This document shows positions 10,101-57,746 of a stretch of 64,000 nt of DNA, piece by piece. The translations under genes and the position numbers were made by a program. The notes beneath the pieces are model-generated. The model saw nothing but the letters and a program-made list of their open reading frames with translations. It was not told the DNA's origin and made no database searches. This stretch comes from Arthrobacter sp. Hiyo4 (lineage in GTDB: Bacteria > Actinomycetota > Actinomycetes > Actinomycetales > Micrococcaceae): contig AP014718.1 of NCBI GenBank assembly GCA_002370555.1, positions 930,001 to 994,000 on the forward strand, written 5' to 3'. Within the stretch, counting starts at the first letter, position 1; the number at the start of each line of letters is the position of its first letter.

Positions 10101-10679
10101 ACGTGATGACCACGTCCACCACGGGGTAGCCTATGGTGGCGAGCCGAGTCAGGAGGTCGCCTTCGGCGCTGAGGGCCGGGCCCAGCGCGGTGTACCAGCT
10201 GACCACCAGCACGGCACCGGAAATCACCGCCGCGTCCAGGACCGTCCTGGCCAGCCCCACGCGGGTGGTGCCGCCGGGCCGCCTGAAACTGAAGAGTGCG
10301 ACGGCGGCCGGCATCGGATACGCCAGGAACAGGGCGTCCGCCAAGGAAGGGAACGGGTAGACGTGGTTGTTGGCGAGGCCGTAGTACGTCCAGACGAGCT
10401 GCCCGGCCGCCCAGACATAGGCGGCCACGGACATCAGCGTCCAGGCCCGGGCGTTAGCCCCGCCTTGGCGGCAACCCGGGCACAACTGCGGCCCGCCAGT
10501 ATGGCCGCCAGCAGGATGGAGAAATCACCCGCGACGACGGCAGCGGGAGTGCCGTTGTTGGCAGCAAAAAACACCCCAAGAATGGCCAGCACCACAGCAC
10601 CAAGCGCGATCAGCCACACCAGCGTGGCCGTGCGCGTGCCTGCGGCGGGACGTTGCTCCAGGAGACCTGTCTGAGACAC
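7172..10679 (-). CDS. Large hybrid sensor histidine kinase (TM-PAS-HisKA-HATPase-REC-REC-HPt), frameshifted
   Basis: About 1170 residues. The GTG start at 10679 follows a GGGGAGGGA site. A multi-helix membrane sensor (roughly residues 20-330) is followed by a short coiled segment [14 protein letters not shown] and a PAS domain ([20 protein letters not shown]). The kinase core has the H-box [19 protein letters not shown]-box [10 protein letters not shown] and G-boxes DTGIGI and GGTGLGLAI. Two receiver domains follow ([13 protein letters not shown] with [22 protein letters not shown] with [14 protein letters not shown]), then an HPt domain ([15 protein letters not shown]). This is a complete phosphorelay chain. 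The reading needs at least five frame corrections (near 10460, 9955, 9480, 8050 and several between 7370 and 7490). Its stop overlaps the GGDEF response regulator, its probable output. Confidence 0.88.
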
Positions 10680-10780
10680 GCGGATCCCTCCCCATCAGTG
10701 CGCCCGTCACCCGTAAAAGCTGAGACCCGGGCCCGCCCGAGACCAGGGCGGAGACGCATCCTGATGATATCCCCCACAGC

Positions 10781-12106
10781 TCAAGAAGGGCCGTACCTCG
10801 CGTCCACGTGGACCACGTCCCGGCCGGCGCGCTGCAGCAGGCTGGCCGCCACGCCGGAACGGTAACCGGAGGCGCAGTGCACCCACACGGTGCCAGCCGG
10901 AATATCGGCCATCCGCCCCAGCAGCTCATGCAGCGGGATGTTCACCGCCCCTGCGAGGTGTCCGGCGTCGTACTCATCCGTCCGGCGGACATCGAGCACC
11001 ACGTCCCCGGCGCTCCGCCCATGCAGCATTTCGGCCCAGTCCGCACGCGGATAATGCACGACGGCGGTGCCCGGCGCGAGTGCCGAGGGGTCCGTTCCGA
11101 GGGCGGCATCGGGGGAGTCGATGCCGATGCGAGACAGGTCCCGGATGGCCTTTTCGATGTCCTCTTCCGATCCCACCAGCGTCATTTTTTGGTTCCACGG
11201 CAGGACCCAGCCCAGGTAGGCGGTGAAGCTGGAGCCGCGGCCATACTCAAAACTCACCGAGCCCTGCAGGTGACTGCTGGCGAAGGCCACCCGGTGGCGC
11301 AAGTCCACCACCCATTCGCCGTCCGCGAGCCGGCGACTGAGCTCCTCCGGATCCACGGATTCGGGCACGGTGAGGTCCGCCGGCCCCGGACCCTGCCGGT
11401 TCGCCGGCGCCATGTGCGCGTAATAGGACGGGTAGGCCGTCAGGTTGTTGATGAGATCCCGCACAAAGTGGTCCTCATCGGCGTCCGTGAACGCGTGGTT
11501 GGTTTCCTGCTCCTGGGCGACGGTGGACGATCGGGCGCTCGACGGCGGCCCGGACGAACAGAACGAGCCGAACCCGTGCGTGGGGTACAGGGCTGCGTCC
11601 GGCTTGGCCTCGGCGGCCAGGCGGCGGACCGAGGAGTACTGGGCGCGGGTGAGGTCTTCGGTGTCCTCGTCACTGACCAGATCAGTGCGGCCCACCGACC
11701 CGTAGAGCAGGCTGCCGCCCGAGAACACGGCCTGCTGCTCGCCGTCGCTGACCACGTAGCTGAGATGGTGGTGGGTGTGACCGGGCGTGGCCACGGCCTT
11801 CACGGTGAGCCGGCCCACCTGGACCGTGCCGCCGTCGGCTATTGGCTGGTGTTCAAACGCGACGTCGTCGTTTGCGCTGACGAGGTACTCGGCACCGTGC
11901 ATGTGGGCCAGGATTAGCCCGCCGGTGAGGTAGTCGTTGTGCAGGTGGGTTTCGGCAACGTGGGTGATCCGGACGTCGGCTGCCGCGGCCGCGGCTTCCA
12001 CCCGGTCCGTGTCCCGCTGCGGATCGATGACCAGGGCCACCTCGCCGTCGTGGACCAGGTAGCTCCGGTCCCCGAGCGGCCGCGTTTCGATGACAACGAC
12101 ATCCAT
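10781..12106 (-). CDS. MBL-fold persulfide dioxygenase-like protein with two rhodanese domains
   Basis: 442 residues, intact. The start MDVVVIETRPLGDRSYLV is eight bases after a GAGGAGA site. The metallo-beta-lactamase fold carries the metal site as THLHNDYLTGG (HxHxxD), the GHTHHHL histidine, and a distal histidine in YPTHGFGSFCS, all typical of ETHE1-like sulfur dioxygenases. Two rhodanese domains follow. The first (residues about 260-340) has no active cysteine at the expected place and looks structural. The second ends in the active loop VHCASGYRSGVA. Such proteins oxidise glutathione- or CoA-type persulfides and handle sulfane sulfur. The gene is 59 bases downstream of the GGDEF-EAL gene on the same strand. 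Confidence 0.85.
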   Translation of the reverse strand: MDVVVIETRPLGDRSYLVHDGEVALVIDPQRDTDRVEAAAAAADVRITHVAETHLHNDYLTGGLILAHMHGAEYLVSANDDVAFEHQPIADGGTVQVGRLTVKAVATPGHTHHHLSYVVSDGEQQAVFSGGSLLYGSVGRTDLVSDEDTEDLTRAQYSSVRRLAAEAKPDAALYPTHGFGSFCSSGPPSSARSSTVAQEQETNHAFTDADEDHFVRDLINNLTAYPSYYAHMAPANRQGPGPADLTVPESVDPEELSRRLADGEWVVDLRHRVAFASSHLQGSVSFEYGRGSSFTAYLGWVLPWNQKMTLVGSEEDIEKAIRDLSRIGIDSPDAALGTDPSALAPGTAVVHYPRADWAEMLHGRSAGDVVLDVRRTDEYDAGHLAGAVNIPLHELLGRMADIPAGTVWVHCASGYRSGVAASLLQRAGRDVVHVDARYGPS

Positions 12107-12164
12107 ATGTTCATTCTCCTCGCGTTGCCGGAAGCGTGCCCGGATTCCCAATTGGCAAAGGTGT

Positions 12165-14302
12165 TTAGCCTGCGGCGGAGCGGCTCGCCAACGCATAGAG
12201 CGAATGTCCGGCGTTCTTCAGCGCGTGCTCGAAGCGGTCGGCCGGTTCCGGGTGCGAGAACAGGTAGCCCTGCAGCGAATCGCATTCGAGTGCGATGAGG
12301 TAATTCGCCTGCTCATCGGTTTCGATGCCTTCGGCGGTGACGGTCAGTCCCAGGCTGTGCGCCATATTGATCATGGAGCTCAGGATGGGCAGGCGTTCCG
12401 TGCCGGTGCGAACCATGGAGACAAACGTCTTGTCGATTTTGACGATGTCCACTGGCAGGTCCTGCAGCCGTCCCAGCGAGGAGTAGCCCGTACCGAAATC
12501 GTCCAGCGCCACCCGGGCACCCGCCTCCCGCAACCGGCTGAGCTGTTCGATCACGTTGCAGTCGGCGTCGAAGAACACGCTCTCGGTTACCTCGAAAACC
12601 AGCTGGTAAACGCCCACGCCGCACGATTCCGAAAGGTCCAGGACTTTCTCGGCAAAGTCGAGTTCCTGCAACTGGACCCCGAGACGTTCATGGACAGCGA
12701 CCGCGACGGATCCTCGCGCAACCATGGCGCCAGCTGCTTCAGGCTTTGCGCCATCACCTCGTTGCCGAGTTCGTTGATGAGGCCGCTGCGTTCGGCCAAG
12801 GGAATGAACACCGCGGGAGGGACACGCTGGTCCTCGCGGTCCCAACGTGCCAGAGCTTCAAACTTGACCACCCTGCCCATGCGCGGCGACACGATCGGCT
12901 GGAACTCCACAGAAATCTCACCCCGGGCAATGGCCAGCTGGAGGCCTGCTTCCAGATCGGTCCGCTGGACCAGGGCCGTCATCATATCCTCGTGGAAGCG
13001 CTGGAAGCGGTTCTTGCCGGCAGCTTTGGCCGCGTACATGGCGATATCCGCCTCACGGAGCAACTCGGAAGCGACCATTGTTTCCTTGCCGATGGAGGCG
13101 AGCCCCAGGCTGAGGCTCGGCCGCAGCGCCCTGCCGTTGATGGTCACGGGCACGTGCAGGCACGTGACAATGCTGGCTGCAATGGCATCGGCATCGGGGC
13201 AGGCCGTCAGCAGCACCACAAATTCGTCGCCGCCGAGCCGGGCCACCACATCCGCTGTGGGGACACAGTCACGGAGCCGCCGCGCCACTTCCAGCAGCAT
13301 GTCATCGCCGGCCTGGTGGCCAAGGATGTCGTTGACTTCCTTGAAATTGTCCAGGTCAATGAGCAGGACGTCCACTGTCTTCAGGCGTGGTTTCTTGAGC
13401 GCCGCAGCAAGGGACTGGTTGAACACCGCCCGGTTGGCCAGTCCGGTGAGCGGATCCTGGAAAGCCAAGGCACTCAGCTGCTCCGCCTGGGCCGCCAGGA
13501 CAGCCAGGGCCTGCTCGGCCTGCTCCTGCGCCTGTCTGCGCGGAGTGACATCCCGGAAGCTCCACACCCGGCCCGCGATCCTCTCGCCAACCCGTTGGGG
13601 CCGCGAGTATCTTTCAAAGGTCCGGCCATCCTTGAAGTCCAGCACGTCGTGGCTTTCTGCTGCCGGGTTCTCCACAACCTCGGCGATCCTTGCCATGAAG
13701 GCCTCCGGGTTGGCAACCTGGGAGACGATCAGCCGCATGATGGGCACTTCGGTGTCACCGTCCAGGAGTTCCGGCGGGATGCCCCACATTTTCAGGAACT
13801 GGTCATTGAACCCGGCAACACTGCCGTCGGAGCTGATCACCAGGATGCCGTCCGCGGTGGATTCGAGGGTGGCCGTCAGCAGTGACATGGCCTTGAGGAG
13901 GTCAGCGTCAGCGCCCTTGCGGTGTTCCGTGCTCCGGACCGAAACCAGCAAAACCTGCGTGCCGCCGTCGTCCAGCAGTGAGCCTGCCACCTCGGCGGAG
14001 AACTCTGTGCCGTCCCGGTGCAGTCCGTGCACTTCACGCGGCGGCAGCGGTATATCGGGCTGCGCTTGCAGGTGCTCCTGAAGCAACCGCGTTTCGCTCC
14101 GGAACGCCTCCGACAGGAGCAGCCAGTGGTCGCTGCCGATCAGCTCAGCGCGTGTGTAGCCGAACAGCTTGCTGGCTGCCGCGTTGGCCATTTTGATGGT
14201 GCGGTCCGCGTTGACAGCGAGCAGCGCATCCGGGCTGGCATCAAGAAACACATCGAAACCCGACGCGCCCAAATCCTTGTCCTGCCGCTTGGAACGACCC
14301 AT
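12165..14302 (-). CDS. PAS-PAS-GGDEF-EAL cyclic di-GMP signalling protein, frameshifted
   Basis: About 712 residues. Two PAS domains (FLDASPDALLAVNADRTIKM and LESTADGILVISSDGSVAGF) precede a GGDEF domain (DPLTGLANRAVFNQ, active site RLGGDEFVVLL) and an EAL domain (FEALARW, VFEVTES, ALDDFGTGYSS, IVKIDKTF, AEGIET). Both catalytic signatures are intact, so it may be bifunctional. The output is set by the PAS input or by domain dominance. There is no membrane segment, so it is cytosolic. The start follows GGGGGTGG. One frame break near 12690 (NVSG then VQLQELDF) is explained by a missing base. It forms a c-di-GMP block with the two upstream-numbered signalling genes. Confidence 0.87.
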
Positions 14303-14454
14303 GCGCTACCACCCCCACGCACATCATAAAGTGCATGTTGTGATCGCGGTACGACAATGCGTGACTTTTGAGAGGCCCTTGGACATGCAGGCCCCGGAAT
14401 CCGCGTTTCGCTTGGTCCGGGGGGTGAAAACTGGCTAAGAGTTGCGCATTCCCG

Positions 14455-15856
14455 TCAGGCCGGCGCTGGCACCGGCCCGGAAACTTGGCCGGCCCGGGAA
14501 GCGGTGCTGGCAGCGGCACGGGCATTGGTGCCCAACCCTCGCACCACCCAGCCCTCCGCCTGCCAGGCAGGAGCATCAAGGACGTTCCTGGCGTCCAGGA
14601 TCACCCGCCGCCGCACCAAAGCGCCCGCACCGGCAGGGCTCAGGCGCCGGTATTCGTCCCACTCAGTGAGGAGGAGCACCAGCTCGGCATCCTCCAAGGC
14701 CCGCGTCGCGGAGGCTTCGAACCGCAGCTGCGGATACCGCAGCCACGCGTGGTTGACGGCTTTCGGATCCGTCACCGTCACGTGCGCGCCGGACGCTGCC
14801 AGCCGGGCCGCCACGTCCAGGGCGGGGGAGTCGCGGATGTCATCGGTCTCCGGTTTGAAGGAAGCTCCGAGGATGGTGATCGCGCGTCCGGAGAGCGCGC
14901 CGCCGCACAGTTCCCCGGCCAGGGACACCGTCCGGGTCCGCTGGCGGACGTTGATGGCATCCACCACACCCATCCACTCGTTCACCGGGTCCACGCCCAG
15001 AGCCGCGGCCTGGCTGCGGAGGCTGCGGATGTCCTTGGGCAGGCACCCGCCGCCGAAGCCCAGCCCGGCATGCATGTAGCGGTTCCCGATCCTCGGGTCC
15101 ATGCCCATGGCCTCGCTGAGTTCGGCCACGTCCGCGCCGGACGCGTCGCACAGTTCGGAGATGGCGTTGATGAAGCTGACCTTGGTGGCCAGGAACGCGT
15201 TGGCGGCCGACTTGATCAGCTCCGCCGTGGCGAAGTTGCACACCAGGCGCGGAATGCCGGCGTTCAGCAGCGGCTCATAGACGGCATCCAGTGCGGCCGT
15301 CACCGCACGCGGCGCCCGGTTTTGGGGTTGAAGGCCGCGGCGCGTCCGCCCGCCACACCGTAGACGAGCCGGTCCGGCACCAGCGAGTCCTTCACCGCTG
15401 TGCCCTGCCGCAGGAACTCGGGGTTCCAGCCCAGCTGCACGTCCGGCCGCCCCGCGAGGACGCCCTGGAGCATGTCCACCGTGCCCACGGGCACCGTTGA
15501 TTTACCGACGACGACGGCGCCCCTCGCCAGGTGCGGGAGCAGCGCCTCGGTGGCGGAAACGAGGAAGGTGAGGTCGGCGCCGTCGGACGTCTTGGACTGC
15601 GGCGTCCCGACGCACAGGAAATGAACCTGGGCGCCGGCGGCAGCGGCGACGTCGGGGAGAACGTCAGGCGGCCGGTGCTGCGTCCATCGCGGAGCAGTTC
15701 GTCCAGGCCGGGTTCGAAGAAAGGGGCCTGGCCGCGGCCCAGCTGGTCCACTTTGGTGGCGTCCACGTCGATGCCCACCACGGTGTGGCCCATGGACGCG
15801 AGCGTGGCGGCGTGCACGGCGCCGAGGTAGCCGCAGCCGATCACCGATATTTTCAC
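14455..15856 (-). CDS. ugd: UDP-glucose 6-dehydrogenase, frameshifted
   Basis: About 467 residues. The NAD-binding start KISVIGCGYLGAVHAATL, VGIDVDATKVDQL, PVGTVDML, the NPEFLRQGTAVKD segment and the catalytic cysteine in GLGFGGGCLPKDIRSL identify UDP-glucose/UDP-ManNAc dehydrogenase. The substrate UDP-glucose is the family default; it gives UDP-glucuronate for surface glycans. The GTG start at 15856 overlaps the glycosyltransferase stop (GTGA), so the two are coupled. Frame breaks lie near 15650 (SPTSPLPPAP becomes AAAAGAQVHFLCVG) and 15310. The C-terminus ends in an Ala/Pro-rich tail. Confidence 0.87.
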
Positions 15857-17058
15857 AGGGACGCTCCACTTTTGGTTTGGGCAGGCTCAACCACCGGGCG
15901 GCGGCTCTTGGTGTCCACGGTTTCAGTCAACGGTTCGCCGGCGATTACTGATTGGTACTGGCGCACCAGCTCGGCGCTGAGCACCGGCCACGTCCGCGCC
16001 TGGACCGAGGCGTGCGCTGTCGTGGCGAACGCGCGGCGCTTGGCGTCGTCGCCCATGAGATCCATCACCCGGGCCCGGAAGCCGGCCAGGTCGCCGGGCT
16101 GGTACAGCCAGCCTGTACGGGAGTTTTCCACCAGGTCCAGAGGCCCGCCGCGGCCCGTGGCCACCACCGGCACCCCCGATGCCATGGCCTCCTGGATGGT
16201 CTGGCAGAACGTCTCGAACTCGCCGGGATGGACAAAAAGGTCGAAGGACGCCACCGCCTTCGCCAGCTCCTCACCGCCGAGGAACCCGGTGAACACGGCG
16301 TCCGGCAGGGCTTCCTGCAGGGCGGACTTTTGGGGTCCGTCGCCCACAATCACCAGCCTGGTGTTCGGGACGTTGGCGAGCGCGGCGAGGTCCTCCACCT
16401 GCTTTTCGATGGCCAGCCGGCCGACGTAGCCGATGATCCGCTCACCGCCGGGGGCAACCGTTGCCCGCCACCCGGCGTCGCGCTTCTCCGGCGAAAACCG
16501 CGCGGTATCCACACCGCGCCGCCACATGCCCACGCGCGGAATCCCGCGGCCGCGCAACTGGTTCAGCGCGAAGGTGGACGGCACCAGAGTCCGGGTGGCC
16601 AGCAGGTGGATGTTCTCCACCCGGTTCCACGCCCAGTTCTCCAGGAACGGCACACCATAGCGTGCGGCGTAGCTGGGAACCTCGGTCTGGTAGATGGCTA
16701 TGGTGGGGATCCCCAACTGATGCGCGGCCTGCACTGCCCGCCACCCGAGGATAAACGGCGATGCGAGGTGGACAACGTCGGGTGCGTAGTCGGCAAGGAT
16801 TCGCTTGACCCGGTACACACCGCCCATCGCCACTCGCACGTTGGTGTAGCCAGCCAGCGGAACCGCGGGAACCCGGTGCACCGTCGCGCCGTGAACCACC
16901 TCGGCCGGTCCCACGAACTCGGCGACAGCATAGGTGGAAGGGGCGATGACCAGGACGTCGTAGCCCTGGTCCTCCAGGTGTTCAAGCACCCTCAGGATGG
17001 AGTGGGTCACTCCGTTCATCAGCGGCAGGAATGACTCGGCAACAATTGCGATCCTCAC
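15853..17058 (-). CDS. GT4-family glycosyltransferase (MgtA/PimB-like mannosyltransferase type)
   Basis: About 401 residues, intact. I place the start at the GTG of VRIAIVAESFLPLMNGVTHS, where family members begin. A GTG 39 bases upstream (17097) also fits the frame but has no ribosome site. GT-B fold motifs include the MNGVTHSI donor loop, VHLASPFILG, GYVGRLAIEKQVEDL, VIVGDGPQKSAL and the EFETFCQTIQEAMASGVPVV motif with two glutamates. Similar actinobacterial enzymes move mannose or glucuronate onto glycolipids. Coupling to UDP-glucose dehydrogenase suggests a glucuronic acid-containing lipid, which is inference. The last residues RRPVVEPAQTKSGASL appear to be encoded by half of an intergenic palindrome. 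Confidence 0.85.
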   Translation of the reverse strand: MRIAIVAESFLPLMNGVTHSILRVLEHLEDQGYDVLVIAPSTYAVAEFVGPAEVVHGATVHRVPAVPLAGYTNVRVAMGGVYRVKRILADYAPDVVHLASPFILGWRAVQAAHQLGIPTIAIYQTEVPSYAARYGVPFLENWAWNRVENIHLLATRTLVPSTFALNQLRGRGIPRVGMWRRGVDTARFSPEKRDAGWRATVAPGGERIIGYVGRLAIEKQVEDLAALANVPNTRLVIVGDGPQKSALQEALPDAVFTGFLGGEELAKAVASFDLFVHPGEFETFCQTIQEAMASGVPVVATGRGGPLDLVENSRTGWLYQPGDLAGFRARVMDLMGDDAKRRAFATTAHASVQARTWPVLSAELVRQYQSVIAGEPLTETVDTKSRRPVVEPAQTKSGASL

Positions 17059-43958: not shown

Positions 43959-45513
43959 TCAGGCGGTCTTGCGGGCGGAGGTCATGAGCTTCATCAGGCT
44001 TTCCTGGCTCGCTTCCTCCTTATTCAGGACCCGGTGATGGCGCCCTCGAAGATGGTGTAGATGCGGTCGGAAAGACCCAGCAGCTCGGGCAGCTCGGATG
44101 AGATGACCACCACGCCTTTGCCCTGGTTGGCCAGTTGCTGGATGATGCCGTAGATCTCGTATTTGGCGCCCACATCGATGCCACGCGTCGGTTCATCCAG
44201 GATGAGGAGGTCCGGGTCCGTGAACATCCACTTCGCCAGAACCACTTTCTGCTGGTTACCGCCCGACAGCTTGGCGACGCCTTCCTCAACAGAGGGCGTC
44301 TTGGTCCGGAGGGCCTTGCGGTACTGCTCGGCAACTTCGAATTCCTTGGCAGAGTCCACGACGCTGTTGCGGCTGATCTTCTTGAGGTTCGCTGAAACGG
44401 TGGTGGCCTTGATGTCATCGAGCAGGTTCAGGCCCAGGGACTTTCGGTCCTCGGTCACATAACCCAGTCCGGCGTCAATCGCCTGCCGGACATTTTTGAG
44501 GACAACTTCCTTGCCGTCCTTATATACATGGCCATTGATGAACCGGCCATAGGAGCGGCCGAAGACGGAGCGGGCCAGTTCGGTCCGGCCGGCACCCATC
44601 AGCCCGGCGAATCCCACAATCTCCCCGCGCCGCACAAAGAAGTTTGAGTTCTTACAGACCAGCCTGTCCTGGATGGCGGGGTGGCCAACGGACCAGTCCT
44701 TCACTTCGAAGAACACTTCGCCGATCTTGGGGTGTGCTCGGGGAAGCGGGACTCCAAGGCCCGGCCCACCATGCCCTTGATGATGCGGTCCTCATCGACG
44801 CCGTCGGCCTTGACATCGAGCGTTTCGATCGACTTGCCGTCCCGGATGATGGTGATGGAATCGGCGATCTGCTCGATCTCGTTGAGCTTGTGGGAAATGA
44901 TGATCGAGGTGATGCCTTTGGCCTTGAGGCCCAGCATCAGGTCCAGGAGGTGCTGGGAATCGGATTCGTTCAGCGCAGCGGTCGGCTCGTCCAGAATGAG
45001 GATCTTGACTGACTTGTTCAGGGCCTTGGCGATCTCCACGAGCTGCTGCTTGCCGACGCCGATCTCCTTGATGGGGGTGTCCGGGTCTTCCCTGAGTCCC
45101 ACCCGGGCCAGCAGCTCCGCGGACCTCTGCCGGGCCTCCGCCCAGTTGATGACGCCGCGTTTGGTCGGTTCGTTGCCCAGGAAGATGTTCTCCATGATGG
45201 ACAGTTCCGGGATCAGGGCCAGCTCCTGGTGGATGATCACAATGCCTGCGTGCTCGCTGGCGCGGATGTCCTTGAACTGCTGGACCTCGGTCTGGTAGAC
45301 GATGTCGCCGTCGTAGCTGCCGTAGGGGTAGACGCCCGAAAGCACCTTCATCAGCGTGGACTTGCCAGCGCCGTTTTCACCGCAGATTGCGTGGATCTCG
45401 CCGGCCTTGACCCGGAGGCTTACTTCCGCCAAAGCCTTGACGCCAGGAAATTCCTTGGTAATTGAGCGCATCTCCAGGATGACCGGGTCAGTGTGCGTGG
45501 TGTGGGACGTCAT
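43959..45513 (-). CDS. gguA: Multiple-sugar ABC transporter ATP-binding protein (GguA-like), frameshifted
   Basis: About 518 residues, a CUT2 double ATPase. The first half has Walker [30 protein letters not shown], Walker [11 protein letters not shown] and H-loop IISHK. The second half has [33 protein letters not shown] and [15 protein letters not shown], with the usual degenerate Walker A. Breaks near 44731 (ACACCCCAAG, one C short) and 44030 (ACCGGGTCC, one G short). The repaired C-terminus is [12 protein letters not shown]. It is the first gene of the transport operon. Confidence 0.9.
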
Positions 45514-47039: not shown

Positions 47040-47834
47040 GTGCTGCTGGCCCTGATGCAGGCAAACGCCCGCGTACTCGACGGCGACGCAAACTTCGCCG
47101 CCCTGGATGCGGCTGCCAAGACGGCCGCCGCGAAAGGCGCAGCCGTCCTGGTGACCCCAGAACTCTTCCCCGTTGGATACGCACCGCTGCGGCTCCGCTC
47201 GGAGCTCGACCCCGCCGGGCTTCCCGCCATGAGGGAGACGCTGGCAAGCATCGCGCGCCACTACGGAATCGGACTGGTCTACAGCCTGCCGTCAGTCACG
47301 GACGGGGGCAGCTGGCACATCACCTCCACGCTCGTGGACAGCGCGGGGGTTGAGCTTCTGACCTACGCAAAAGTGCACCTCTTTGGCGACGATGAACGCG
47401 CGGCGTTCAGCCCCGTTGAAGCGGCTCCGGCCGTCGTCGATTTCAACGGCTTCCGGACGTCAATGGTGATCTGCTACGACGTGGAATTTCCGGAAACGGT
47501 CAGGGCCGCCGCGCTGGGCGGAGCCGAGTTGCTGCTGGTGCCCACCGCACTGGCACACGGTTTCGAAACGGTTCCCCAGGTCCTGCTCCGGGCCCGCGCG
47601 TTGGAAAGCCAGCTGACCATCGCCTATGCCAACCACTCGGGAACCGAGGACGGCTGCGATTTCCTCGGCGGCAGTGTCATTGCCGGACCGGATGGTTCGC
47701 TGCTGGCCGCGGCGGGACCGGGAGCCGAACTCCTGTACGCCGAGGTGGAACCGGACGCCGCCCGGAAAGCCCGTGACGTGGTGCCCTACTTGCGGGAACG
47801 CCGCCCGGAGATCTACCGGTCCTGGGGCATCTGA
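47040..47834 (+). CDS. davA: Nitrilase-superfamily amidohydrolase, DavA-like (5-aminovaleramidase type)
   Basis: 264 residues, intact. The GTG start follows GAGGTGG. The catalytic triad is visible: Glu in VLVTPELFPVGYAPL, Lys in LLTYAKVHLFGDDERAAFSP and Cys in TSMVICYDVEFPETVRAAAL. Length and layout, including GAELLLVPTALAHGFETVPQ and YANHSGTEDGCDFLGGSVIA, resemble pseudomonad DavA, which hydrolyses 5-aminovaleramide. The DavB-like monooxygenase that would make this amide lies 4.5 kb away, with a permease and a PucR regulator between. The substrate is inferred, not shown. The 3' end overlaps the convergent PucR gene by 22 bases. Confidence 0.78.
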   Translation: MLLALMQANARVLDGDANFAALDAAAKTAAAKGAAVLVTPELFPVGYAPLRLRSELDPAGLPAMRETLASIARHYGIGLVYSLPSVTDGGSWHITSTLVDSAGVELLTYAKVHLFGDDERAAFSPVEAAPAVVDFNGFRTSMVICYDVEFPETVRAAALGGAELLLVPTALAHGFETVPQVLLRARALESQLTIAYANHSGTEDGCDFLGGSVIAGPDGSLLAAAGPGAELLYAEVEPDAARKARDVVPYLRERRPEIYRSWGI

Positions 47835-49460
47835 ACGATCCCGTCCTCCAGGCCGTCCACGTACTGCAGGGCAATCCACAGCTCTGCCCGCACTTGGGCG
47901 GAACCAAGGTCCATGGCCAGCAGCTCGCCCAATGCATTGATCTGGCGCCGCACGCTGTTCCTGTGCAGCCCCAGGACTTTGGCAGTGGCATCCCAGTTGC
48001 CGTTTTCGCCCAGCCACGACTTCAGGAGACCGAGTTGGGAACTGATTCGGTCAGGCTCCTGCGCCAGGACCGGTTCCAGCAGCCGGGTGGCAAGCATGGT
48101 GCCGGCGCTGCGGCCCAACAGCCCAGCGACTGACCACGTGACGTCATCCACGCGCACACTTTGTCCGCTTCCCTGGACGCGGGAACGCAGCGACGCCGCG
48201 CGCTGGTACGCTCCCGCCAGTCCTGCCAGTTCGGTGGCATCCCCGATGACCAGGCGCCAGCCGAGCCTCTCGACTTCGCTTACCAGGGCATCATCAACCT
48301 TCAGCCGGGTGACGGCAGCGAACCCGTAATCCGTGATCTCCACGAGTTTGGTGTCGAACAGCCGCCGCCACTGCAGCAGCTCCCGGACGGGACTTTCGCC
48401 CGCCGGCCACGTGCCCTGCTCCGCCTTGATGCCTTGCACCACGCGAAGCGGGGCCGAACGGGTGGAGGAGGTGCTTTGGGCCAGCAGGTCCCTGAGACCG
48501 TTGATGTGCCGCGTTCCGCCGCTGGCCAGGCTGTCCGGATGCAGCAGCAGCGCTGTGGCCAGCTGGCTCGGCGCGAGGGATCCGCTGGTCCGCTGCCGGA
48601 CCAGCAGTTCCAGCAGCCCGACGGCGGATGAGACCACACTGTTCTGCGAGGGCGTCAGCGGCTGGTCCGTCCCGAGAATCAAAGCGCCGAGGTTGGCGTC
48701 CCGTGTGCTGCGCAGTGGATGCCCGAACACCAGGACAGATCCGGGAATGTCGAATGAATCCATTTCCACCCGGGGCCGCTGCCGCCGAGCAGCCGGCCGA
48801 GAATCGGCTGCAGCGCGGGAAATTCGACGCCGATGCCCGCCCGGGCGCGGACCCTTCCGTCCGCGCCGACCAGCACTGCCCACACGGGAACCCGCTGGGC
48901 CAGGGCGGCCAGGAGTTCATGCTCTGGACGGGCGGAGAGGACTGCGCGCATCAGCTGCCGGTTGATGTCCGCCAGCTGCCTGAAGACTTTGGCGTTATCC
49001 GATTCGAGCAGTTGCGAAAATTCCAGCCCGATGGCAGCGAACGGCACAGTGCCTGGCACCTCAACCAGCGTCAGGTTATGCCGGATGCAGGCCTTCACCA
49101 GTGCCTCCGGCACTGCGTCGAAGTAGGGTTCCAGCCCGAAGCCCAGGGCCCCACCCCGGCTCCCACCAGGCGCCGCACGTACGCGTCAACCCAGGCTGGG
49201 TTGCTCGCCTCGCCCACAAACGGCAGCCCCGCCGTGAGGAGGAACTCGCCGTCGAGCAGGTACGGCGTGGGGTCCTCCAGCTCGCTGGGCTCTACCCAGC
49301 GCAGCACGCCGGAACCGTTGCCGCCGTCGTGCAGGATCGTCAACTCCGGCGGCAACTTTTCCAGGAACTGCTCCAACGTGACAGCGCTGATCGGCTCGGC
49401 GCCGGTCCCTCTTCCCGTTGCGGCTCTGGTGCCCGCTCCCGCGGCAGCTTCAGGCGACAT
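47813..49460 (-). CDS. PucR-family transcriptional regulator, frameshifted
   Basis: About 549 residues after repair. The N-terminal PucR domain (TLEQFLEKLPPELTILHDGG, then LLDGEFLLTAGLPFVGEA) is followed by a GGDEF-like spacer domain. The C-terminal HTH_30 helix-turn-helix is LLKSWLGENGNWDATAKVLG, then LHRNSVRRQINALGELL. Such proteins usually activate uptake and breakdown of purines, GABA, amines or amino acids. Breaks lie near 49142 and 48780. The start overlaps the alr stop by 11 bases, so the two are cotranscribed. It is a good candidate to control the neighbouring permease-monooxygenase operon and the amidase. Confidence 0.85.
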
Positions 49461-50663
49461 GCGGCACGCTGACTTCGGGATCCTGGTAGTCGGGGCACTC
49501 GTAGGCCCTGGGCAGCCGCGGCGCTATCCGGTTGATGATTTCGTCGCCGTGGCTGCCGATGGCCGAGCCCCATTCGTCCGCGCTCGCCGCACCGGTGTCC
49601 GGATCGCCGAACAGCACGGCCGTGTCGCCGACGGAAACTCCGCAGGCTTCCGGACCGAGGTCCACCATGAACTGGTCCATGCACACCTTGCCGATCACGG
49701 GCACCCGCCTGCCGCCCAGTTGGACAATGCTGCGCCCCGAGATGCCTTTCGGGATGCCGTCCGCATAGCCAAGGGGGATCAGCCCCAGATACCTTGTCTC
49801 GTGGGTGATGGCCTGGTGTTCGTAGCTCACGCCGGTGCCGGCCGGAACCTTCTTCACGAGCACAACGGGAGCCGTGACAGTCAGGGCCGGGCGCAGCCCG
49901 AAATCCGCGGGTCAAGATGGTCGGCGGGCGCCAGGCCATAAATGGCCAGCCCGGCCCGCACCATGTCGAAGGCAAACTCAGGGCGGTCCAGGATGTTGGC
50001 AGAGCTGGACACATGCCTCAGCTCCGGTTCCAGGCCGCCTTCCCTGGCCTGGCGTACGGCTTCCCCGAAGGCGTCCACCGCTGCGGCGTTCCCGGGGTGG
50101 GCCGGTACGTCGGCCCAGGCCAGATGGGTCCAGATACCCCGGACAGTGAGGGTCCCCTCGAGCTCGGCGTTGCGTGCAGCGGCCACAAGGTCAGGCCAGT
50201 CTTCCGTGCGTGCGCCGCCGCGGCTCAACCCGCTGTCCAGCTCAAGATGGACCGCGGCCGGCCTTCCGAGCGTGCGGGCGATGCCGGCCACTACGTCGAG
50301 CTGGGCGGGGCTGCCCAAGGACATGTCGACGTCGTTTTCCACAGCCTCGCGAATGATCTCGCTGGACGCTGTGGCGAGGTACAGCCAGGACAGCACTGGC
50401 GCCGCGATGCCTGCGCGGCGTAGCGCAAGAGCCTCGGTCAGCTGTGCCGTTCCGAGCCAGTCGGCGCCGGCAGCGAGGGCAGCCTCCGCCACCTCGACAA
50501 GCCCGTGGCCATAGGCATTGCCTTTCACCACCGCCATGAAATGCGGCGCGGGAGTGAGTGCCCGGAGGGCGCGGACATTATCGGAAATCGCGGCCAGATC
50601 AACGCTGACCCGGCCGGAAAGCGCTACCGCAGGCGTGTTGTTCGGTTGTGCATTACGTCTCAT
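49450..50663 (-). CDS. alr: Alanine racemase, frameshifted
   Basis: About 404 residues. The PLP lysine is in FMAVVKGNAYGHGLVEVAEA and the second catalytic base Tyr in GTGVSYEHQAITHETRYLGL. Other motifs include HLELDSGLSRGGAR, MVRAGLAIYGLAPADHLDP, IPLGYADGIPKG and GKVCMDQFMVDLGP. It normally supplies D-alanine for peptidoglycan. Here it heads an operon with a PucR regulator and is divergent from an amino-acid permease, so a catabolic or broader-specificity role is possible. The break near 49886 (GAAATCCGCGGGTC region) is fixed by one base. No ribosome site is seen before the ATG. Confidence 0.9.
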
Positions 50664-50671
50664 GCCAGAAC

Positions 50672-50677
50672 ACTATA
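50672..50677 (-). promoter_or_regulatory. Putative -10 box of alr, leaderless transcript
   Basis: TATAGT lies eight bases before the alr ATG on the minus strand, with no Shine-Dalgarno sequence between. This spacing would place the transcript start at or next to the start codon, as is common in actinobacteria. The -35 region is weak. Confidence 0.4.
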
Positions 50678-50733
50678 GGTCATTTTGCACAATCGTGAGA
50701 GGTGGCTCACACGCTTAAGCTGGGCGAGGGGAA

Positions 50734-52302
50734 ATGACAACTACTCACGAATGGACGTCAACGATGACTGTGCCCACCTACACAGAACGCCGGCCGGCAC
50801 CTCCTGCCGGCCGGCCCGGCCTGGCCGCGCAGCTGCTGCGCCGCAAGCCGATCGGACAGATGGTCAATGAAGCCGAAACAGGCCACGGCGGAACCCGGCT
50901 GATCCGCAGCTTCGGCGTTTTCCAGCTGACAATGATCAGCGTCGGCGCCACCCTGGGAACCGGCATCCTGGTCATCCTCGGCGAATCCGTTCCCTTGGCC
51001 GGGCCGGCGATCTGGATCTCCTTCGCCATCGCTGGACTCGCCGCCTTGCTGTCGGCAGTGTCCTACGCCGAAATGGCCGGTCTCGTTCCGGTGGCAGGCT
51101 CCAGCTATTCCTACAGCTACGCCACTTTGGGCGAGGGCATGGCCTGGATCTGTGGCTGGTGCCTCGTGCTCGAATACGCAGTCTCGGTCGCGGCAGTGGC
51201 AGTTGGGGCCGGCCAGTACGTGAACGAGTCCCTGGCGGTCTTCGGCCAGTTCCTGCCCGACGCAATCTCCCAGCCCCCAGGAGGCGGCGGGGTCGTGAAT
51301 ATCCCGGCAATGGTCATCGTCCTGCTCGCCATGATCTTGCTGGTTCGCGGCGCCAAGGAAAGCGCCTGGATTAACACCGTCATCGTGGTGGTCAAGGTGG
51401 GAATCCTGATCTTCTTCTGCGCAGTGGCTTTCACCGCCTTCAGCGCCGGCAACTTCGAGCCTCTCCTGCCTATGGGCGCAGCCGGTGTCTCAGCCGCCGC
51501 TTCCAGCGTCTTCTTCTCGTACATCGGCTTCGACGCGGCATCCACGGCCGGTGAGGAAGCCCGCAATCCCAAGCGCGACCTGCCGCGGGCCATCATGCTC
51601 TCCATGCTGATCGTCACCACCATCTATGTTCTGGTTGCCGTGGCCGCCGTCGGCGCCCGTCCCTGGGGCTGGTTCGATGGTAACGAAGCAGCACTCGTGA
51701 AGATCCTCGAGGAAACCACCGGGCAGCCGTGGATCGCCCTGGTCTTCGCCGTCGGCGCAGTCCTGGCCATCGCCAGCATCGTGCTGACTGTCCTTTACGG
51801 ACAGACCCGCATTCTTCTCTCCATGGCGCGCGACGGGCTCATTCCAAAAATCTTCGGCCGGGTCTCCGCGAGGACCGGCACTCCGGTTGCCGGCACCCTG
51901 ATCGTGGGCATCCTCGTGGCAGTCACGGCCGGCCTGGTCCCGCTGGGTGCCCTCGCCGACGCCACCAGCATCGGCACCCTGTTCGCCTTCGCCCTGGTCA
52001 ACGTGGCCGTGATCTACCTGCGCCGCACCAGGCCCGAGCTGAAGCGCACGTTCCGTGTACCGCTCTTCCCCCTGACCCCGGTCCTCGGCGCCCTGATGTG
52101 CGCCTACCTTATGGCCAACCTCGGTACCGACACCTGGGTCACCTTCGGAATCTGGATGCTGGTGGGCATGGCGGCCTACTTCGGCTACGGGCGCCGGAAC
52201 TCCAGGGTGGCGGCGCTGAGCCACGAGGAATACCGTGAGCTGAGCAGGCAGGAATCTTCAACGCTGTCCACCCCTGAACAAACGAAGGCAGAGCTTTCAT
52301 GA
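50734..52302 (+). CDS. APC-family amino-acid permease
   Basis: 522 residues, intact, with 12 predicted helices. Characteristic segments are MISVGATLGTGILVILGESV (helix 1 with the unwound GTG), VSYAEMAGLVPVAGSSYSYS, FFSYIGFDAASTAGEEARNP and LYGQTRILLSMARDGLIPKI. The pattern is that of the cationic amino-acid/polyamine branch. A GAGGGGAA site abuts the first ATG; an internal ATG ten codons later is possible. The stop overlaps the monooxygenase start (ATGA), so the two are coupled. This suggests the permease brings in the monooxygenase substrate, perhaps lysine. Confidence 0.88.
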   Translation: MTTTHEWTSTMTVPTYTERRPAPPAGRPGLAAQLLRRKPIGQMVNEAETGHGGTRLIRSFGVFQLTMISVGATLGTGILVILGESVPLAGPAIWISFAIAGLAALLSAVSYAEMAGLVPVAGSSYSYSYATLGEGMAWICGWCLVLEYAVSVAAVAVGAGQYVNESLAVFGQFLPDAISQPPGGGGVVNIPAMVIVLLAMILLVRGAKESAWINTVIVVVKVGILIFFCAVAFTAFSAGNFEPLLPMGAAGVSAAASSVFFSYIGFDAASTAGEEARNPKRDLPRAIMLSMLIVTTIYVLVAVAAVGARPWGWFDGNEAALVKILEETTGQPWIALVFAVGAVLAIASIVLTVLYGQTRILLSMARDGLIPKIFGRVSARTGTPVAGTLIVGILVAVTAGLVPLGALADATSIGTLFAFALVNVAVIYLRRTRPELKRTFRVPLFPLTPVLGALMCAYLMANLGTDTWVTFGIWMLVGMAAYFGYGRRNSRVAALSHEEYRELSRQESSTLSTPEQTKAELS

Positions 52303-53990
52303 CCGTCGCCACAGAACTCCCGGCCTCAGACCCGTCCAGCACCCAAGCTGGCCCTATCACCATGCTGAACCCCGATTTTCCGTTCAGCTACGACCACTAC
52401 CTCGCCCACCCGGCAGGGCTCGGTGCGGTTCCGCCGGAACTCTACGGCACTGAGGTGGCCGTTGTAGGGGCGGGCCTTTCGGGCCTCGTCACAGCGTACG
52501 AACTGATGAAGCTGGCCTGCGTCCTGTGGTCTACGAGGCCGCCCAGATCGGCGGCCGCCTGCGCACCGCCAGCTTCCCGTCCGCTCCCGGCGTTGTGGCC
52601 GACCTGGGCGGCATGCGGTTCCCTGTGTCCGGCCGGGCTTTCTACCACTACGTGGACCTGCTGGGGCTGGACACACAGGACTTCCCCAACCCGCTGGCGC
52701 CCGTCACCTCCAGCACCGTGATCGAACTGGCCGGCCAGAAGCACTACGCCGAGTCCGCCGAGGACCTGCCGTCGTTCTTCCGCGAGGTGGCCGATGCCTG
52801 GAAGGCCGCTGTGAACGACGGTGCGAAGTTTGCCGAAATGCAGGAGGCCATCCGGATCCGGGACACGGGCCGGATCAAGGAGCTCTGGAACGAGCTGCTG
52901 CCGCTCATGGACGAGCAGACCTTCTATGGGTTCATCGCCGGGAGCGAGTCATTCAAGGAAGCCGGCTTTGCGCACCGGGAGGCCTTTGGCCAGGTGGGTT
53001 TCGGCACCGGTGGCTGGGACACTGACTTCCCCAACTCCATCCTGGAAATCCTCCGCGTGGTCTACACCGACGCCGATGACCAGCACCGGCTCATCAGCGG
53101 GGAGCGCAACGGCTGCCCGAGGCACTATGGCAGCACGCGCCGTCGGGCATGGCCCACTGGCCGGAGGGAACGTCCCTGGCGTCGCTCCACTCCGGCACGC
53201 CCCGCGGGGCTGTGGGCAGGATCAGCCGCGATGCCGATGGCGACCTCCGGATCAGGGAGCGCTGGGGCCGCGAAGCCAGCTACCCTGCGGTGGTGACCAC
53301 GTGCCAGTCCTGGCTGCTGTCCACGCGCATCCACACCGAGGAGGCGCTGTTCCCGGCCGAACTGTGGACCGCGATCGAGCGTTCGCACTACATGCAGTCT
53401 TCCAAGACGTTTGTGATGGTGGACCGGCCGTTCTGGAAGGACGTTGATCCGGACACCGGCCGTGAAGTCCTGTCCATGACCCTCACGGACCGGCTGAACA
53501 GGGCCACCTACCTCCTGGACGACGGCCCGGACAAGCCCGCCGTGATCCTGCTGTCCTACACGTGGAACGATGACGCGCTCAAATGGCTGGCGCTGGACGC
53601 TGACGAACGAGTTGAGCTGATGCTGCACTCGCTCGAACAGATTTACCCGGGCGTGGACATTGCCAGCCACATCGTGGGCCAGCCCATCACCGTTTCCTGG
53701 GAAGCGGACCCCAACTTCATGGGTGCCTTCAAAGCGAACCTGCCGGGGCATTACCGCTACCAGCAGCGACTCTTCACGCACTTCAAGCAGGACAAACTGC
53801 CCGAATCCCAGCGCGGGATCTTCCTTGCCGGTGACGATGTGTCCTTCACCGCGGGCTGGGCCGAAGGCGCCGTAACCACCGGCCTAAACGCGGTTTGGGG
53901 TGTGGTGAACCACCTGGGCGGTTCATCTGCGCCTGGCAACCCGGGCCGGGTGAGCTCCTGGACTCGATCGGCCCGATCAGCCTGGACTGA
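52299..53990 (+). CDS. davB: DavB-like L-amino-acid (lysine) 2-monooxygenase, frameshifted
   Basis: About 564 residues after repair. It is a flavin monoamine oxidase-family enzyme. The dinucleotide motif is VAVVGAGLSGLVTAYELMK, then VVYEAAQIGGRLRTASF and VADLGGMRFPVSGRAFYHYV. Downstream segments FGQVGFGTGGWDTDFPNSIL, YMQSSKTFVMVDRPFWKD, SMTLTDRLNRATYL, ITVSWEADPNFMGAFKANLP and GIFLAGDDVSFTAGWAEGAV agree closely with what I know of pseudomonad lysine 2-monooxygenase. That enzyme turns L-lysine into 5-aminovaleramide, CO2 and water. Tryptophan or phenylalanine 2-monooxygenases are related alternatives. Breaks near 52520, 53115 and 53955; three added bases restore the frame and the ending SIGPISLD. 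Confidence 0.82.
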
Positions 53991-56448: not shown

Positions 56449-57746
56449 GTGACTACTACCGCCACCACAACAGCCGCAGTCAGCAACCAGTCGCTGGCCG
56501 AGCTTGACCCCGAAATCGCAGCAGTCCTCAGCCAGGAACTTGGCCGCCAGCGCGGCACCCTGGAAATGATCGCCTCCGAAAACTTTGCCCCGCGCGCTGT
56601 GATGGAAGCCCAGGGCTCGGTCCTGACTAACAAGTACGCCGAGGGTTACCCGGGCCGCCGCTACTACGGCGGCTGCGAATACGTCGACATCGCCGAGCAG
56701 CTGGCCATCGACCGCGTCAAGGCACTTTTCGGTGCCGAGTACGCCAACGTCCAGCCGCACTCCGGTGCCCAGGCCAACGCGGCAGCACTGTCCGCCATGA
56801 TCACCCCCGGTGACAAGATCCTGGGCCTGTCCCTGGCCCACGGCGGCCACCTGACCCACGGCATGAAGCTCAACTTCTCTGGCAAGCTCTACAACGTGGC
56901 TGCGTACCAGGTGGAGCCGGACAACTTCCGCGTTGACATGGACAAGCTGCGCGAACAGGCCATCGCCGAGAAGCCCCAGGTCATCATCGCCGGCTGGTCC
57001 GCCTACCCGCGCCACCTGGACTTCGCGGCCTTCCGCTCCATCGCCGATGAAGTGGGCGCGCTGCTCTGGACCGACATGGCACACTTCGCCGGACTGGTGG
57101 CTGCGGGGCTGCACCCGAGCCCGGTGCCGTACTCCGACGTCGTCACCTCCACCGTGCACAAGACCCTCGCCGGCCCGCGCTCCGGTGTGATCCTGGCCAA
57201 GCAGGAGTGGGCCAAGAAGATCAACTCCAACGTCTTCCCGGGCCAGCAGGGCGGCCCGCTCATGCACGTCATTGCAGCCAAGGCCGTGGCCTTCAAGATC
57301 GCCGGCACCGAGGAATTCAAGGAGCGCCAGGAGCGCGTCCTGGAAGGCGCCAAGATCATCGCTGACCGCCTCAACCAGTCCGACGTCGCCGACGCCGGCG
57401 TTTCGGTCCTCACCGGCGGCACCGACGTGCACCTGGTCCTGGTGGACCTGCGCAACTCCCAGCTCGACGGCCAGCAGGCCGAGGACCTCCTGCACTCCGT
57501 GGGCATCACCGTGAACCGCAATGCGGTTCCGTTCGACCCCGCCCGCCGATGGTCACCTCCGGCCTGCGCATTGGCACCCCGGCCCTCGCCACCCGCGGCT
57601 TCGGTGCTGCCGAGTTCACCGAGGTGGCGGAGATCATCGCAACTGCACTGAAGGCCGGCACCGCCACGGACGTCGAGGCGCTGCAGTCCCGCGTGGACAA
57701 GCTCGCCGCCGATTTCCCGCTGTACCCGCAGCACGAGCAGTGGTAA
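56449..57746 (+). CDS. glyA: Serine hydroxymethyltransferase, frameshifted near its end
   Basis: About 432 residues; GTG start after AGGAG. It moves the serine hydroxymethyl carbon to THF, giving glycine and methylene-THF. Motifs include [80 protein letters not shown] and the PLP lysine in [15 protein letters not shown]. The break near 57540 is a C-run one base short (GACCCCGCCCG); repair gives [20 protein letters not shown]. It heads the riboswitch-controlled operon with folD. Confidence 0.95.

Follow-up and report, generated by a model that had tools for sequence, protein, structure and literature searches.

A five-gene block at positions 47040-53990 of a 64,000-nucleotide stretch of the Arthrobacter sp. 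Hiyo4 genome (contig AP014718.1, positions 930,001 to 994,000 of the forward strand; the whole stretch is referred to here as the window) probably encodes a PucR-associated arginine catabolic module that works via an amide, with L-arginine converted to 4-guanidinobutyramide and then to 4-guanidinobutyrate. A first-pass annotation of the window had described the same genes as a DavB/DavA-like lysine route. We found that its amide chemistry, a 2-monooxygenase paired with a CN-hydrolase, is supported, while lysine is not the favoured substrate. All five genes that it reported, in the order given and with overlaps of 4 bases between permease and monooxygenase (52299-52302) and of 11 bases between alr and pucR (49450-49460), are borne out by open frames, domain matches and coordinates. 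The features are as follows.

47040..47834, plus strand: CN-hydrolase (nitrilase-superfamily) amidase, single open frame; predicted 4-guanidinobutyramide hydrolase.
47813..48883, minus strand: pucR C-terminal piece with PucR-type helix-turn-helix (PF13556, HTH_30, 53.5 bits, cut-off 27).
48679..49113, minus strand: pucR middle piece in a different frame, placed from the frame list and the genus loci.
49095..49460, minus strand: pucR N-terminal piece in a different frame (PF07905, 25.2 bits, below the cut-off of 33.5).
49450..49863, minus strand: racemase (alr) C-terminal piece (PF00842, Ala_racemase_C, 115.7 bits), in which Tyr354 is replaced by Asp and the catalytic Tyr is followed by Glu.
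49881..50663, minus strand: racemase (alr) N-terminal piece (PF01168, Ala_racemase_N, 212.3 bits), with the pyridoxal phosphate (PLP) lysine retained and Lys129 replaced by Glu.
50672..50690: conserved non-coding block ACTATAGGTCATTTTGCAC, a putative promoter or operator, seen on aligning the window with 32 relatives.
50696..50711: second conserved non-coding block TGAGAGGTGGCTCACA, a putative operator, from the same alignment.
50734..52302, plus strand: APC-superfamily amino-acid permease, single open frame (PF13520, 206 bits).
52299..52511, plus strand: flavin adenine dinucleotide (FAD)-dependent amino-acid 2-monooxygenase, N-terminal piece, 99% identical to the intact gene of locus L026.
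52526..53140, plus strand: monooxygenase middle piece in a different frame, 94% identical to L026 (PF01593, 35 bits for the enclosing open frame).
53149..53990, plus strand: monooxygenase C-terminal piece with an extra frame break near the end, 98% identical to L026 (PF01593, 102 bits).

In the proposed pathway, the permease would import a basic amino acid, the FAD enzyme would oxidatively decarboxylate L-arginine to 4-guanidinobutyramide (arginine 2-monooxygenase, EC 1.13.12.1) and the CN-hydrolase would split this amide to 4-guanidinobutyrate. From this, a guanidinobutyrase-like ureohydrolase whose gene lies at a second locus of the genome would produce 4-aminobutyrate (GABA) and urea; the keto acid that is a further product of such monooxygenases may be used by an adjoining 5-guanidino-2-oxopentanoate decarboxylase-like enzyme. 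Where present, the racemase would have diverged from an alanine racemase and shifted its specificity to a basic amino acid, feeding in D-arginine (or D-lysine).

Of 36 same-genus genomes, 32 have a close orthologue of the amidase, with 62-88% identity across the fetched loci. The amidase is accompanied by pucR, permease and monooxygenase in each of the 32 loci fetched, so that the joint occurrence of the four genes is not due to chance. The monooxygenase is one open frame in every one of these loci (in one case truncated where the fetched stretch stops). The flanks are generally constant: a ROK regulator borders one end, and carbonic anhydrase, purU and glyA border the other. The conservation of gene order that the first-pass annotation had proposed to check therefore holds for four genes in 32 of the 36 genomes, and the racemase is accessory, being found in 12 of the 32 blocks; on a tree of the block proteins its presence pattern requires 5 changes, compared with a mean of about 10 after shuffling. 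The complete five-gene block also occurs in two more genera of the family (L210; L308-L311, 4/4), and a plasmid record of Arthrobacter sp. StoSoilB13 carries a monooxygenase 87% identical to the L026 gene. These results support the block as a conserved module of an amino-acid 2-monooxygenase and a CN-hydrolase amidase with their own permease and PucR-type regulator. Insertions can enter the block at its amidase-pucR end: in three relatives (L034, 6136-10933; L036, 8664-12209; L041, 8486-12539) these two genes are separated by about 3.5-4.8 kb that holds other genes, including in L034 an integrase-core transposase, the other inserted genes being named by reading their translations only.

The substrate prediction begins with the monooxygenase. 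The closest solved structure to the C-terminal piece of the window is the L-amino acid oxidase/monooxygenase (L-AAO/MOG) 3WE0 (396 bits), and the intact L026 gene matches this enzyme of Pseudomonas sp. AIU 813 with 817 bits over 546 ungapped positions. The block enzyme belongs to the same family as L-AAO/MOG (3WE0, 5YB6-8) and DavB, shares their reaction type, and retains the seven contact residues Arg102, Trp235, Asp238, Tyr416, Trp418, Phe473 and Trp516, whose roles in the pocket have been described (PMC5832979). Because all seven are retained, a substrate with a basic side chain is expected.

The block monooxygenase nonetheless differs from L-AAO/MOG and DavB at positions 254, 258, 417 and 515 as a set, in its gene neighbourhood and in its branch of the tree. 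At these four positions all 32 genus loci carry A/H/T/G, as do 29 further actinobacterial loci (11 of the Streptomyces group and 18 of the order of the window), whereas a DavB-like pocket (C254/Q258/A or S417/A515) is found in 71 loci, mostly Pseudomonas; three loci (L134, L184 and L287) gave no usable alignment at the pocket and stand outside both groups. The block enzyme thus resembles the DavB type in its homology to L-AAO/MOG with an acidic residue 238, but does not have the DavB-type pocket, the use of these residues as a family definition being our own proposal. The wider pockets of tryptophan and phenylalanine enzymes have been ascribed to Phe235 together with Gly515 (PMC5832979), and of this pair the block monooxygenase shows Gly515 only. 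We built two quick trees, with support from the Shimodaira-Hasegawa-like approximate likelihood ratio test (SH-aLRT) only, the second of which omits 18 rows of the first, L219 and L226 among them. In these trees the window piece falls in a clade with its own family and two genomes of another family (support 99-100), and the DavB-like and acidimicrobial rows lie together, apart from it, behind a branch with support 100; in neither did the window monooxygenase group with the DavB-like enzymes.

The family also holds a type with Asn in place of Asp238 in 4/4 loci (L060, 10171-11862; L061, 7662-9368; L062, 7622-9328; L294, near 9047), with its own CN-hydrolase and a different permease, plus a peptidase M20 family gene in L062. 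The Asn238 variant of L-AAO/MOG is inactive (PMC5832979), and the substrate of this type is probably not a basic amino acid.

Gene context, as read from the loci compared, separates the two pocket types. Genome contigs were scanned for related loci, with the best 80 of 558 retained. Outside the genus, 12 of the 29 loci with the A/H/T/G pocket have a ureohydrolase within the fetched stretch; these 12 come from three other families of the order (f7, f14 and f17), and in 10 of them the ureohydrolase is directly upstream of the monooxygenase. Its top solved match is guanidinobutyrase 3NIO (282 bits), ahead of guanidinopropionase (271) and agmatinase 4DZ4 (212). In locus L211 the order is amidase, permease, monooxygenase, HTH-cupin regulator, sodium:solute symporter, ureohydrolase and decarboxylase; the best family of the decarboxylase in L088 is 5-guanidino-2-oxopentanoate decarboxylase, at 342 bits and below the cut-off of 500. 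The DavB-like group, by comparison, has a ureohydrolase in 2 of 75 loci (the 71 plus 4 near variants), both Tepidimonas, and the acidimicrobial loci in 2 of 6. Two acidimicrobial-type monooxygenases, with Phe or Tyr at position 254, lie near a ureohydrolase (L101, 6987-10965, and L133), and in L101 an amidase-signature enzyme replaces the CN-hydrolase.

The ureohydrolase is present in 35 of 36 same-genus genomes. The genome of the window itself carries a homologous cluster of symporter, regulator, ureohydrolase and decarboxylase, with partly broken frames, at about 738-744 kb (G000:C1). The marks of an arginine pathway, namely a monooxygenase with a CN-hydrolase amidase, a guanidinobutyrase-like gene in the same genome and linkage of the two in relatives, were all found.

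A contrasting case comes from the family of the window itself. Locus L225 has a DavB pocket and a lysine-type cluster (8114-15876) with an Lrp/AsnC regulator. Its transaminase, of the GABA type, exceeds the TIGR00700 cut-off (591 versus 507), its glutaryl-CoA dehydrogenase-like gene has 3SF6 as best solved match (508 bits), and its succinate-glutarate CoA-transferase-like gene scores 355 bits against a cut-off of 750. From its gene content, this is likely a lysine-to-glutaryl-CoA cluster of the DavB type.

A further tie of the pocket to arginine comes from Streptomyces, by association only. A monooxygenase homologue is present in 381 of 392 genomes of the genus taken as Streptomyces, and all 11 first-copy loci that were read carry the A/H/T/G pocket. 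Given this very wide spread, the first copies were not used as an arginine anchor; no assigned function for them was met in the parts of the literature consulted. We selected 29 genomes that gave at least two matches, which in some cases were fragments of one gene, and fetched 26 second copies. A/[H,Q]/T/G with Phe516 is found in 24 of the 26, with H258 in 9, and the remaining two are L294, with Asn238, and L287. Polyketide synthase motifs occur in 7 of the 26 stretches and a ureohydrolase match in 5. According to the available text of two papers, an arginine monooxygenase and a 4-guanidinobutyramide hydrolase supply the starter unit of arginine-derived polyketides in Streptomyces by the same two-step chemistry (PMC5082578, PMC10322714), and a passage of a third describes an arginine oxidase gene that served as a probe for such polyketide clusters (PMC4737276). 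We infer that the second copies are enzymes of these published pathways, and A254, T417 and G515 are common to 24 of them and the block. They differ from the block enzymes in having Phe516 in place of Trp516, in their biosynthetic rather than catabolic setting, and in forming a separate clade in the tree.

The block racemase is a paralogue of the other alr in these genomes: its copies share 69-95% identity with the one in the L028 block, against 42-49% for the other alr genes. The module thus has a racemase other than the housekeeping one; the idea that the block alr is the only racemase of the genome was rejected, because another alr lies elsewhere. Its best structure match is alanine racemase 1VFH (329 bits). 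With Alr it shares the fold family, and the PLP lysine and the catalytic tyrosine are retained in the block copies of all 24 relatives and in the window pieces. It differs from Alr at three positions, in all 25 block copies (24 relatives and the window): the inner-gate Tyr354 is Asp, the Gly after the catalytic Tyr is Glu, and Lys129 is Glu. The assignment of the gate position is secure, because it aligns with Tyr361 of 1VFH, which is listed as the equivalent of Tyr354 in the text available of PMC3485190. In 12 of these genomes the second alr was compared as well, and all 12 copies show Tyr, Gly and Lys. Among 17 ordinary alr from genomes without the block racemase (9 of the same genus and 8 of the same order), Tyr was read in 14/14, Gly in 16/16 and Lys in 15/16 readable cases, the sole deviation being one Glu at Lys129.

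In alanine racemase two inner tyrosines define the alanine specificity, and lysine-preferring racemases have Thr or Ala at the Tyr354 gate and do not have Lys129, according to the same portion of PMC3485190. The negative charge at the gate of the block racemase suggests a racemase of basic amino acids. Lyr and Bar/Bsr likewise have neither the Tyr354 gate (Thr391, Ala393) nor Lys129 (PMC3485190, in the part available). The block racemase, however, matches lysine- and broad-specificity-type racemases far more weakly than Alr (86-112 versus 329 bits), and by these scores it falls outside the Lyr/Bar group; it also has Asp, rather than Thr or Ala, at the gate. We therefore put forward, as a tentative proposal with slightly less than an even chance of being right, that this is a new basic-amino-acid racemase that evolved independently from actinobacterial Alr via acidic residues at and near the gate, forming with the monooxygenase a dedicated D/L-arginine degradation operon. 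A text search of the literature returned no paper joining an arginine or lysine racemase with Arthrobacter.

It is also conceivable, although we consider it doubtful, that the gene is an ordinary second alanine racemase hitch-hiking in the operon. The retained PLP lysine and catalytic tyrosine, the best match to 1VFH and the absence of the racemase from 20 of the 32 blocks would all be in keeping with this. The Asp at the tyrosine of alanine specificity and the two Glu residues, invariant in the 24 relatives and the window, argue the other way, as do the ordinary residues at those positions in the second alr of the same genomes. Furthermore, all 25 genomes found with this racemase subfamily, that of the window included, carry it in the block.

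Several observations weigh against the assignment of the module to arginine. The residue fingerprint is a correlation, and none of the enzymes compared was a member of this subfamily with an assayed substrate; the pockets of L219 and L226, from the order of the window, fit neither set. L-AAO/MOG acts on lysine, ornithine and arginine, arginine being the poorest of the three (PMC5832979). Of the 29 same-pocket loci, 17 are without a ureohydrolase in the stretch; within the genus the guanidinobutyrase-like gene lies outside the block (0/32 loci, as follows from how the block is drawn), and the four genomes that do not have the block carry it as well. On the strand opposite the monooxygenase, a glutaryl-CoA dehydrogenase-like gene is found at a distance of about 5.6 kb in L211 and 3.1 kb in L088; homologues occur in every one of the 24 relatives of the genus that were searched, and the genome of the window has one as a 64% fragment. 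Finally, the genome of S. lividans is stated, in a source available in part, to have no arginine monooxygenase, which may conflict with the near-universal first copy in Streptomyces; if S. lividans carries this common copy, then the latter is not an arginine enzyme, or was overlooked, or is silent.

These points bear in part on the DavB/DavA-like lysine route, from L-lysine via 5-aminovaleramide to 5-aminovalerate. In its favour, the closest solved relative is active on L-lysine and has the same Asp238, adjacency to a CN-hydrolase has been used to tell lysine from tryptophan monooxygenase genes (PMC12462448, in the text available), and the glutaryl-CoA dehydrogenase-like genes lie near the monooxygenase in two relatives and occur throughout the relatives searched in the genus. 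We nevertheless judge the lysine route unlikely and favour arginine, because the four pocket positions differ, the window enzyme lies on the other side of the branch with support 100, relatives show guanidinobutyrase-like linkage, and the DavB-type cluster of the same family, L225, looks different; moreover, there is no match to CsiD in the genome of the window. The lysine downstream genes (transaminase and glutarate genes) were not seen in the block, but we dropped this as an argument against lysine, since glutaryl-CoA dehydrogenase-like genes are common elsewhere in the genus.

Less probable still is a general module for basic amino acids that treats arginine, lysine and ornithine alike, its products being split later by guanidinobutyrase and GABA transaminase. 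The presence of both guanidinobutyrase-like and glutaryl-CoA dehydrogenase-like genes in the genus would suit such a module, but the two main pocket types track two neighbourhoods, suggesting specialisation.

The amidase matches PF00795 (CN_hydrolase, 133.5 bits), its closest solved structures are the amidases 5JQN and 3HKX (about 216 bits), and Glu, Lys and Cys motifs, which we take to be those of CN-hydrolases, are visible in its translation. The top models for the permease are BcaP (492 bits) and TIGR00909 (486 bits), which outscore the cationic-permease model TIGR00906 (320), all of them below their cut-offs, so that its placement in a cationic branch by the first-pass annotation is not established. 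In the first sample, 5 of the 11 Streptomyces loci have a permease homologue on the stretch that carries the monooxygenase, as do L211, L214 and L227, which are linked to a ureohydrolase.

The PucR helix-turn-helix exceeds its model cut-off (53.5 versus 27 bits), and pucR is present in all 32 genus loci. In the 70-base gap between the divergent alr and permease genes, two blocks are conserved in the window and 32 relatives irrespective of alr; as exact strings, TATAGGTCA occurs in 20, GGTCATTTTGCAC in 16 and GGCTCACA in 24 of the 33 sequences. Upstream of the permease, no exact gapped palindrome is shared by more than 7 of the 33. The conserved blocks are candidate sites for PucR and promoters.

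In the window, pucR is broken into three overlapping pieces, alr into two and the monooxygenase into at least three, while the amidase and the permease are unbroken. Unrelated genes look broken in the same way, including an ABC ATPase and glyA in the window (44024-45513, 56449-57651), the other alr of the genome and the ureohydrolase elsewhere; such apparent breaks in several unrelated genes across the whole assembly point to its being noisy. Because of these unrelated breaks, the 94-99% identity of the monooxygenase pieces to the intact L026 gene and the rating of the assembly (92% complete, 5% contamination), the frame breaks in monooxygenase, alr and pucR are likely assembly errors. Decay of the monooxygenase and racemase to pseudogenes in this strain, as the broken frames in these genes and in pucR might indicate, is on the same grounds improbable, and the least probable of the alternatives considered.

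The arginine oxygenase route has long been known in soil actinobacteria. The classical pathway of Arthrobacter, Brevibacterium helvolum and Streptomyces griseus is presumably the same route in the same kind of organism. Our literature search, over titles, the beginnings of abstracts and some passages, returned no gene assignment for the arginine oxygenase pathway in Arthrobacter, and the block described here offers genes for it. Taken alone, adjacency to a CN-hydrolase would call both monooxygenase types lysine enzymes, while the A/H/T/G and C/Q/[A,S]/A residues together with gene context may separate arginine-type from lysine-type monooxygenases. Furthermore, the racemase provides a sharp test of how an alanine racemase turns to charged substrates, and it would link the use of D-amino acids in soil to a defined operon.

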